A stretch of 64,000 nucleotides of DNA from Nothopassalora personata (lineage: Eukaryota; Ascomycota; Dothideomycetes; Mycosphaerellales; Mycosphaerellaceae), in contig CM066287.1 of NCBI GenBank assembly GCA_033816765.1, forward strand, positions 2,728,001 to 2,792,000. Reading direction: 5' to 3'. The notes under the pieces are model-generated. The model worked only from the letters and a program-made list of their open reading frames with translations, did not search any database and was not told the origin of the DNA. Below, piece after piece: positions 19,880-22,028 of this stretch. How positions within the stretch are numbered: the stretch's first letter is position 1; each line of letters opens with the position of its first letter. The translations under genes and the position numbers were made by a program.

Positions 19880-22028
19880 ATGGCGATCTTCAAGAAAATG
19901 AGCCTCAAGATAGGCAATACCACAAGAACTGAGGCATCAAACCTAACACTTCGTCAATCAATCTGTTCGTTGCTCGAGTCAGGCTTCCATCGTCTACGCG
20001 ACTGACCAAGGCCCAGATCCCCTTTGCCTAGTAACGATCCTCTTCTTCCTCTGGGGTACGACACATCCACTACTCTCAGCACTTCGCCATACTTACACTC
20101 TCCCAGGTTTCTCCTACGGCCTCCTCGACACCCTCAATAAGTGAGCGAGCTGAAGAGTGCTAGGCACCTACCGATATCTGAGACATATGCTAACCTTGTG
20201 GCCTTCGCTTTCACCAGGCACTTCCAGAACACCTTAGGTATGTCTTTCCAGAGGCCAGAAGGCATCGTTTGTCTGAGACCAGCACGCGGCATCCTCAGTG
20301 CAGTAGCAGCTGCTGACATACGGCCGCGTGGTGTTCGAGTGTGGCTAACGCCCTCCTTTTTAGGTATAACCCGCGCCCGCTCCTCAGGACTGCAAGCTGC
20401 CTACTTTGGTAAGTCCCAAGGATGGAAAGCATCGACTGTCTGAGACCTGCGCACGGCGCCCCCCGGCTCAGCAGCAGTTGCTGAGGCACTGCCACGTGAA
20501 CCTCGAGTGTGGCTCACGCCCTTCTTCTTAGGTGCCTACCCTTTGGCAAGTTTGGGCCACGCAAATTGGCTCCTGCGACACTATGGGTATAAGATTGTCT
20601 TCATCTGGGGGTTGTTTCTTTATGGGGTCGGGGCACTGATCGCTTGGCCTTGGTGAGTACGAGCCAGTATGGAGGTTGCCTGTGCTGACCGTTGGTTCCA
20701 CTTCACAGCATCCTCTACCGCTCCTTTGGTGGCTTCTGCGCCGCGATCTTCGTCATTGGCAACGGCCTTGGATCCCTCGAAACCGCAGCGAATCCATACA
20801 TCACAGTCTGTGGGCCTCCAAGATATGCGGAAATGCGAATCAATGCTGCGCAGGCATTCAATGGCATTGGGACTGTGATTGCACCGGTCTTGGGGAGTTA
20901 TGTGTTCTTCAAGGACACTGGGGATAGTACGGAGAGCCTGAGGAATGTGCAGTGGGTGTACCTGGCCATTGCGTGTTTTGTGTTCTTGTTGGCCGTAGTG
21001 TTCTATTTGTAAGCGATGAACACGTTCGAGAGAGCGAGTTGCTGCTGACGTTGTGAGCAGCTCGCCGATACCTGAGATTACGGACGCCGATATGGAGTTC
21101 CAAGCCCAAGAGACACATGCGAATGCTGCGGGTCAACAGTCGTTCTGGAAGCAGTATCGCTTATTTCATGCTGCGTTTGCTCAGTGAGTAGTCCACCTGG
21201 GCGAAGAAGAAGAATGCTGATGCTGATTGGAGACCAGATTCTGTTATACTGGAGCCCAAGTTGCCATTGCGAGTTACTTCATCAACTTCGCTACAGAGGC
21301 GGGCTGGTCCAGTGCAGCAGGTGCCCAACTATTGGCTGGTGCGCAGGGTGCCTTCGCTCTGGGCAGATTCGCAGGAGTGGGAATCATGAAATACGTTCGT
21401 CCTAGATGGGTATTTCTGGTCTACCTCAGTCTGTGAGTAGATTCTCTCTTTGTGGCGGTTCTTGGCTGACACGCTTATCAGGTGCATCGTCTTCATCTCG
21501 CCCTCGATTGGACTGCATAACAATGCCGGCATCGCGATGCTGTACTTGACATTGTTCTTCGAGAGTATTTGTTTTCCCACGATCGTGGCATTGGGGATGA
21601 GAGGACTGGGAAAGCACTCCAAACGAGGCTCCGGATTCATTGTTGCCGGTGTCAGTGGTGAGTCGCTTTGGTGTTGCGTACCTTCGTATGTCTAGAACGT
21701 CTGCTGATCTGGTGTCCTTCGAGGTGGTGCTGTTGTGCCCCCGGCGTTGGGAGGAGCTGCAGATGCATCTAGCACGGCAGCAGCAATGTCCGTTCCATTT
21801 GCATTCTTCGTACTGACGTGGACATACTGCTTTGCGGTGAACTTCGTGCCTGCATACCGCGAGCCGATTGACATGCTGAAGGACTCCACATTGGCAGTGG
21901 AGACGGAAGCAAAGGACGAAGAAAGTGGCAGCAATGGTGAGCCACAAGTCGGTGAGCCAGAGAAGGGTGCTGTCACACATGTCGAGGGCAATACAGAGGA
22001 GCTTGGCGAGATTCGAAAGGCCGAGTAG
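19880..22028 (+). CDS. MFS transporter of the fucose-permease (FucP-like) family, 11 exons
   Basis: Integral plasma-membrane transporter, probably a proton-coupled sugar symporter; the substrate is unproven. The exons I can join are 19880-19964, 20017-20055, 20107-20140, 20218-20237, 20364-20408, 20532-20652, 20709-21008, 21061-21183, 21238-21432, 21482-21657 and 21724-22028. They total 1,443 nt with all phases compatible, giving 480 residues. TM1 reads LVTILFFLWGFSYGLLDTLN, the FucP-type signature, and NGLGSLETAANPYI matches the family's conserved TM4 segment. A long hydrophilic Glu-rich tail follows the last helix. The gene is unusually intron-dense at its 5' end: six introns fall in the first 775 bases, two of them related to each other. 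Each junction is GT-AG. Confidence 0.85.
20238..20363 (+). repeat. Introner-like element, copy 1 (intron 4 of the MFS gene)
   Basis: A 126-nt GT-AG intron sharing long identical blocks, in the same order, with the 123-nt intron at 20409-20531: TGTCTGAGACC, AG(T/C)AGCAG(C/T)TGCTGA, CGAGTGTGGCT and ACGCCCT before CTT-TTAG. Related introns at two positions of one gene are the definition of introner-like elements. Confidence 0.8.
20409..20531 (+). repeat. Introner-like element, copy 2 (intron 5 of the MFS gene)
   Basis: A 123-nt intron separated from copy 1 by a 45-nt exon. It has the same block order and spacing as copy 1, with scattered substitutions and a small length difference. Splicing both restores the reading frame GITRARSSGLQAAYFGAYPL. 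Confidence 0.8.

Follow-up and report, generated by a model that had tools for sequence, protein, structure and literature searches.

Introns 4 and 5 of a transporter gene in Nothopassalora personata almost certainly belong to a family of introner-like elements (ILEs), and in about half of the copies compared the first four bases recur at the start of the next exon, in a manner specific to each locus. We judge insertion at a staggered cut, accompanied by a 4-bp duplication that supplies the 5' splice site, to be the best explanation overall for this family (family I), and we hold this view with moderate confidence. The origin of introns is a long-standing question, and a four-base, locus-specific match in family I is a new point that would surprise a specialist.

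The host gene lies within the window, by which we mean the whole 64-kb stretch of DNA that was analysed. Its product matches the Pfam family PF07690 (MFS_1; 1.6e-22) and the L-fucose-proton symporter of PDB entry 3o7q (3.3e-51), and its best protein relative, at 91% identity, is a Fulvia fulva protein named 'L-fucose-proton symporter'. The gene was originally predicted to encode an MFS protein, and these matches place it in the fucose-permease type. Intron boundaries were set by splice motifs and reading frame, which gave the following features.

19880..22028, + strand: host gene for an MFS transporter of the L-fucose:H+ symporter (FucP) type, with ten introns by frame and splice motifs
19880, + strand: ATG of the host gene
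19965-20016, + strand: intron 1, read by eye
20056-20106, + strand: intron 2, from splice motifs and frame
20141-20217, + strand: intron 3, from splice motifs and frame
20238..20363, + strand: intron 4, assigned to family I of introner-like elements, 126 nt, GTATGT...TTTTTAG, family HMM score 115
20238..20241, + strand: upstream copy of the proposed 4-bp duplication (GTAT), which opens the 5' splice site of intron 4
20364..20367, + strand: downstream copy of the proposed duplication (GTAT), the first four bases of the 45-nt exon
20364..20408, + strand: 45-nt exon separating introns 4 and 5
20409..20531, + strand: intron 5, assigned to family I of introner-like elements, 123 nt, GTAAGT...CTTCTTAG
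20532..20535, + strand: first four exon bases past intron 5 (GTGC), with only GT in common with the intron start
20653-20708, + strand: intron 6, from splice motifs and frame

These coordinates agree with the lengths first proposed for the two introns around their 45-nt exon, and all six introns said to crowd about 775 bases at the 5' end of the gene could be placed, from 19965 to 20708. Introns 4 and 5 are longer than seven other introns of the gene (49-77 nt). The consensus of seven relatives' transporter proteins runs ungapped across both junctions.

The two introns were originally noted to share blocks in the same order, and this holds: two ungapped blocks align with order kept, one of 65 nt at 78% and one of 44 nt at 75%, and the introns are related along their length. 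A 19-nt paired block, CGAGTGTGGCTNACGCCCT, has two matches in the 64 kb when up to three mismatches are allowed, compared with a shuffle mean of 0.09, and none of 100 shuffles reached two. Other blocks are not rare alone; TGTCTGAGACC (up to two mismatches) has 17 matches where 22 are expected, with both exact copies lying inside introns 4 and 5, and the CAGYAGCAGYTGCTGA block (up to three mismatches) has five where 3.2 are expected. The likeness of the two introns is far from chance.

Searches of the genome (54.5 Mb in 40 contigs) recovered many further copies, as the original prediction had anticipated. DNA searches with intron 4 and intron 5 as queries found at least 11 and at least eight places, respectively, each including the query itself, and a consensus query found at least 41, with both introns of the MFS gene among them; these three counts are lower bounds, and 40 of 53 candidates were scored in the consensus search. 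A pattern representing a 24-nt core (up to three mismatches) occurs at 51 places and its reversed control at none, with six of the 51 falling in copies of one repeat. A profile built over family loci gave 74 unique matches, partial ones counted. Several copies reside in recognisably different genes, including those for Ldh_2, P450 and MFS proteins. The family is therefore dispersed among distinct host genes, and the earlier assignment of both introns to ILEs stands on this dispersal and on the 51 core places versus none in the control. The idea that introns 4 and 5 are ancient occupants of conserved positions, resembling each other through chance or shared constraint, is barely credible. No support for it was found in these searches, the dozens of copies elsewhere in the genome refute a chance or constraint origin of the likeness, and two paralogues in the same genome lack both introns.

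These two paralogues were found by protein search, and their exon is unbroken across both sites.

C5:4362384-4362644: empty-site paralogue 1, 45% identical
C1:886952-887176: empty-site paralogue 2, 44% identical

Empty sites in paralogues are weaker evidence than empty sites in orthologues. Just upstream in the second of these fucose-permease paralogues, we also observed a short element-derived intron of about 59 nt (L122; C1:886835-887000), and its site differs from those of introns 4 and 5 in the MFS gene.

The original prediction described introns 4 and 5 as copies of one another and suggested a recent or local gain, and neither part of this suggestion is supported by comparison with the rest of the family. 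With the first four bases omitted, the two introns are 0.729 identical, which ranks 167th among 351 pairs whose median is 0.724. A tree of 27 copies is star-like with few supported forks, and introns 4 and 5 are not sisters in it; intron 5 pairs weakly (84/84) with a copy elsewhere, and intron 4 pairs with none. With an identity so close to the family median and no pairing in the tree, we conclude that they are very probably two independent insertions. A tandem duplication or gene conversion within the MFS gene would account for their being neighbours with blocks in common, but is disfavoured by the pairwise ranking and by the tree, and we regard it as highly improbable. As to age, the 27 copies diverge from their consensus by 7-24% (median 16%) and the closest pair among them is only 88% identical, which points to a burst in the past and not to ongoing activity. 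A pattern for the 5' end of the element (up to three mismatches) matched only one place in the genome, so no group of young full-length copies came to light.

Two family matches were found at seven of 42 three-kilobase loci, so paired insertions in one gene are not special here. Besides that of the MFS gene, six three-kilobase loci (L019, L021, L022, L028, L029 and L063) each show a second, weaker match within about 1.2 kb, which suggests that some genes gather family introns.

For comparison of intron starts with flanking exons, 35 candidates were chosen by rule, and the test set comprises the 27 whose downstream exon starts with GT. Seven candidates were left out because this GT is missing (at least three of them have a misplaced end or are of another kind), and one (L070) because its tail is of another kind. 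Family I copies end in ...CTTCTGTTTAG or a sequence near it. A further group of 20 remaining copies with usable 5' ends, which overlaps the 35 candidates in seven, consists of family II, 14 copies whose tail is longer (for example CTTCTGTTTGGGCAG), and of six copies that end much as family I does and lack GT.

The first four bases of the intron equal the first four bases of the downstream exon in 13 of the 27 copies, compared with an expectation of 3.2 (p = 5e-6); in this count four donors were set by hand, and two of them, in L036 and L039, give a match, with the L036 donor chosen on the basis of that copy's MFS-like spliced protein. A generic rule that sets donors without reference to the exon gives 11 matching copies of 27 where 2.9 are expected (p = 4e-5). 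When every 4-mer close to the 5' end was admitted and all 35 candidates were included, there are 14 matches against an expected 5.4 (p = 2.5e-4), and the same window scan shows no significant excess of 3-mers, 5-mers or 6-mers (p = 0.15, 0.22 and 0.36). Among 357 register pairs scanned in the 27 copies, only the register (0,0) stands out. Positions -1 and +5 show no excess of matches in these copies, and thus the match is four bases long. Bases tested singly show a weaker excess, with p = 0.013 at base 3 and p = 0.052 at base 4; base -5 reached p = 0.044 among 18 positions tried.

The matching tetramers are GTGA in seven copies, GTCA in three, GTAT in two (intron 4 is an example) and GTAC in one. 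Within the 13 matching copies, tetramer and element similarity are not associated (p = 0.34), which indicates that the tetramer goes with the site and not with the lineage; its inheritance with the element was rejected on this basis. The two least diverged copies (7.4 and 7.5%) both have the donor GTCAGT and each precedes an exon that begins GTCA. Taken by origin, the four-base match is probably a 4-bp target-site duplication.

The 20 remaining copies contain no four-base matches, partly by construction, as their exons seldom start with GT; the fair control is the register scan, in which no register pair of 357 reached three matches in this group. Among six 5'-truncated copies that have a family I 3' end (L072, L101, L106, L113, L122 and L123), only one is followed by an exon that starts with GT, a result that counts against the duplication.

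Under the route that we favour, family I would be a non-autonomous introner-like element that once multiplied through the exons of this genome. The element proper would correspond approximately to GT(C/A)AATCC...CCTTCTGTTTAG and would enter a staggered cut made at GTNN by a putative enzyme, after which filling in of the four-base overhangs would leave GTNN on both flanks. The upstream GTNN and the element's own GT would together form a 5' splice site of the type GTNAGT, GTATGT or GTACGT, and the 3' AG would be brought by the element itself. Splicing, which we predict to operate in vivo, would then remove the element and one GTNN and so restore the mRNA exactly. Insertions at GTNN may be those able to survive in exons, and we propose this as the reason that downstream exons mostly start with GT, as observed for 27 of 34 candidates that are full-length and of the family I type (L070 omitted); GT makes up 5.4% of flank dinucleotides. 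If the duplication model is correct, GTNNGTNN is not expected at element-free orthologous sites.

An exact match is absent from 14 of the 27 copies, including intron 5, which starts with GTAA and precedes GTGC and is thus without an exact duplication. A second route or a later change of donor is therefore possible for these copies. All 14 have G or C at base 4 of the exon, and their donors are mostly GTAA. Later repair of the donor explains them poorly, because in 11 of the 14 the intron copy would have had to change twice and because the one-step donor GTGA is found in none of the eight non-matching cases that precede GTGC or GTGG. The non-matching copies are also not clearly older than the matching ones (p = 0.25). 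These 14 copies are better explained by a second, seamless route or by template switching at GT than by donor repair.

If template switching led by microhomology produced the entire family, a broken strand ending in GTNA would prime on the GTAA of the element and be copied through, with the switch falling at GT only if base 4 differs, and the match would reflect priming and not a staggered cut. This scheme predicts the split seen at exon base 4, where matching copies have A or T (12 of 13) and the others G or C (14 of 14), and it explains the presence of GTAA in many of the latter. However, at base 3 the sequence of 10 of the 13 matching copies departs from GTAA, which would require priming across a mismatch, the two GTAT and one GTAC copies do not fit priming at A4, and priming would not be expected to yield a constant length of four. 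We consider template switching improbable as the source of the match.

The model favoured in print for fungal ILEs, as related in two papers (PMC8469720, PMC9860276), is reverse splicing. Applied to family I, an excised intron would be reverse-spliced into transcribed DNA in front of a GT, seamlessly, with its own GTAAGT donor and with no duplication. Consistent with this are the 14 donors of 27 that do not copy the exon and are mostly GTAA, the 20 remaining copies without a duplication in the register scan, and a surplus of copies that appear to be in the sense orientation, since a crude codon score classified 16 of the 27 as sense, four as antisense and seven as unclear. On the other hand, a seamless route offers no reason for the locus-specific match at bases 3 and 4 in 13 of 27 copies (p = 5e-6) or for GT at the start of most downstream exons, and the 5' exon ends in AG in only two of 27 copies. 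RNA folding is also no better than that of shuffles (mean z -0.51, with one copy of 27 below -2). On balance we find the seamless route unlikely, and the staggered cut with duplication remains our preferred reading of family I.

The ordinary folding scores were repeated in a separate run, in which six of six copies fell within about one standard deviation, and an alignment of 12 copies revealed two-sided change in only two of 20 pairs and yielded a covariation term of 0.29. RNA structure was accordingly rejected as a driver of the family. With the intron removed, 22 of 27 copies have a frame open for at least 20 codons to each side in the sense direction; the antisense direction is also open in 16 of 27, so this count alone is weak evidence for the sense strand. 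The codon score called L036 antisense, yet its spliced protein is MFS-like in sense. Six spliced proteins were compared with Pfam, and the junction lies inside a continuous match in three of these (Ldh_2, P450 and MFS; L018, L031 and L032), with L018 being the one copy among the three that has the four-base match. In L019, the junction is at the edge of a dynamin match, and the other two of the six proteins matched no Pfam family. One family I copy on the minus strand (L003; C10:1044407-1044519) has no normal donor (GTTACC), and its right-hand sense frame is short and its antisense frame longer. This copy may be antisense or may not be spliced.

Comparison of the consensus ends of family I revealed no perfect terminal inverted repeat, and a local alignment of these ends is not significant (499 of 2000 shuffles). 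There is a near-terminal inverted repeat of 8 bp, ACAGAAGG/CCTTCTGT, in which 76% of cells are paired compared with 35-57% when the repeat is slid, and the pair is conserved with little compensatory change. No intergenic family copy was established by a strand and coding-context test that is itself weak, and this absence is odd for a plain DNA transposon.

The ILEs of Fulvia fulva and Dothistroma septosporum, which van der Burgt and colleagues are said to have described in 2012, are the natural point of reference. Family I resembles these elements, which occur in close relatives of its host, in that both are dispersed, sequence-similar, long spliceosomal introns in unrelated genes, and also in the occurrence of ILE pairs within a gene, fast decay and several families per genome. 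Collemare 2015 (PMC4457414) lists four genes with ILE pairs in relatives, and later papers describe fungal ILEs as lacking target-site duplications and as having predicted stable folding. Family I, likened here by description, differs in its four-base locus-specific match (13 of 27) and its ordinary folding. Among the papers listed by searches of the open-licence literature, no title or abstract opening claims fungal introners with duplications.

Gozashti 2022 (PMC9860276) treats the introner families of ascomycetes as having neither terminal inverted repeats nor target-site duplications, and judges duplications by this kind of within-locus match. A locus-specific duplication of fixed length is the trait expected of introners of the duplication type, and family I shows a match of this kind in register (0,0), over four bases, in 13 of 27 copies, with the other 14 lacking it. 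The same paper describes introners of Symbiodinium microadriaticum whose 4-bp duplication lends the 5' splice site, with the 3' splice site held by the element. This is the arrangement that we propose for family I; the Symbiodinium elements have clear terminal inverted repeats, in contrast to the near-terminal 8 bp seen here.

Repeated fungal introns with short near-terminal inverted repeats are also represented by the [D1,2] sister stwintrons of Xylariales (Fekete 2025, PMC12403724; PMC8469720). These stwintrons are two nested introns and are inserted seamlessly, and the authors found no sign of target-site duplication in 288 of them. Family I copies, unlike stwintrons, look like single introns followed by coding sequence. 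In three clear cases the AG is followed by coding sequence and the spliced protein runs on without a break, which speaks against family I being [D1,2] stwintrons.

Ascomycete introners have been reported (PMC9860276) as an outlier without the marks of DNA transposition, and for this reason they have carried much of the case for an RNA-based, reverse-splicing route. We put forward only tentatively, and at somewhat below an even chance, the broader proposal that ascomycete introners, or one family of them at least, move through DNA by cut and fill, with a constant stagger of 4 bp and a 5' splice site taken from the duplicated exon, and that no duplication accompanies the insertion of related copies that have their 3' half in common with this family in the same genome. 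If this were true, one ancestral sequence would have used, or switched between, two insertion chemistries. The occurrence of one family with a four-base duplication and of related copies without it in the same genome would make the choice of route testable in existing genomes.

Several related groups came to light. Family II (L067, L099, L054, L075, L103, L068 and others) has a 3' half in common with family I and a longer tail such as TTTGGGCAG; no duplication is shown by this group, and two of its 14 exons start with GT. A third group seems to share the 3' half and to have another 5' half (TGCACGACGCGCCTCGCTCCAC), as if it were a mosaic, and the pattern for this 5' half (up to three mismatches) occurs at 43 places, such as C3:2442816-2442837 and C4:1715160-1715181, with no matches for the control. 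Finally, six dispersed copies of a repeat (L061, L062, L064, L065, L069 and L071, around base 1500) carry an identical 24-nt piece of the element's 3' part followed by ATTTAGGT. Two copies checked have no open frame longer than 94 codons. The six copies are 94-96% alike in their main alignments, have a GC content of 42-44% and contain internal tandem repeats.
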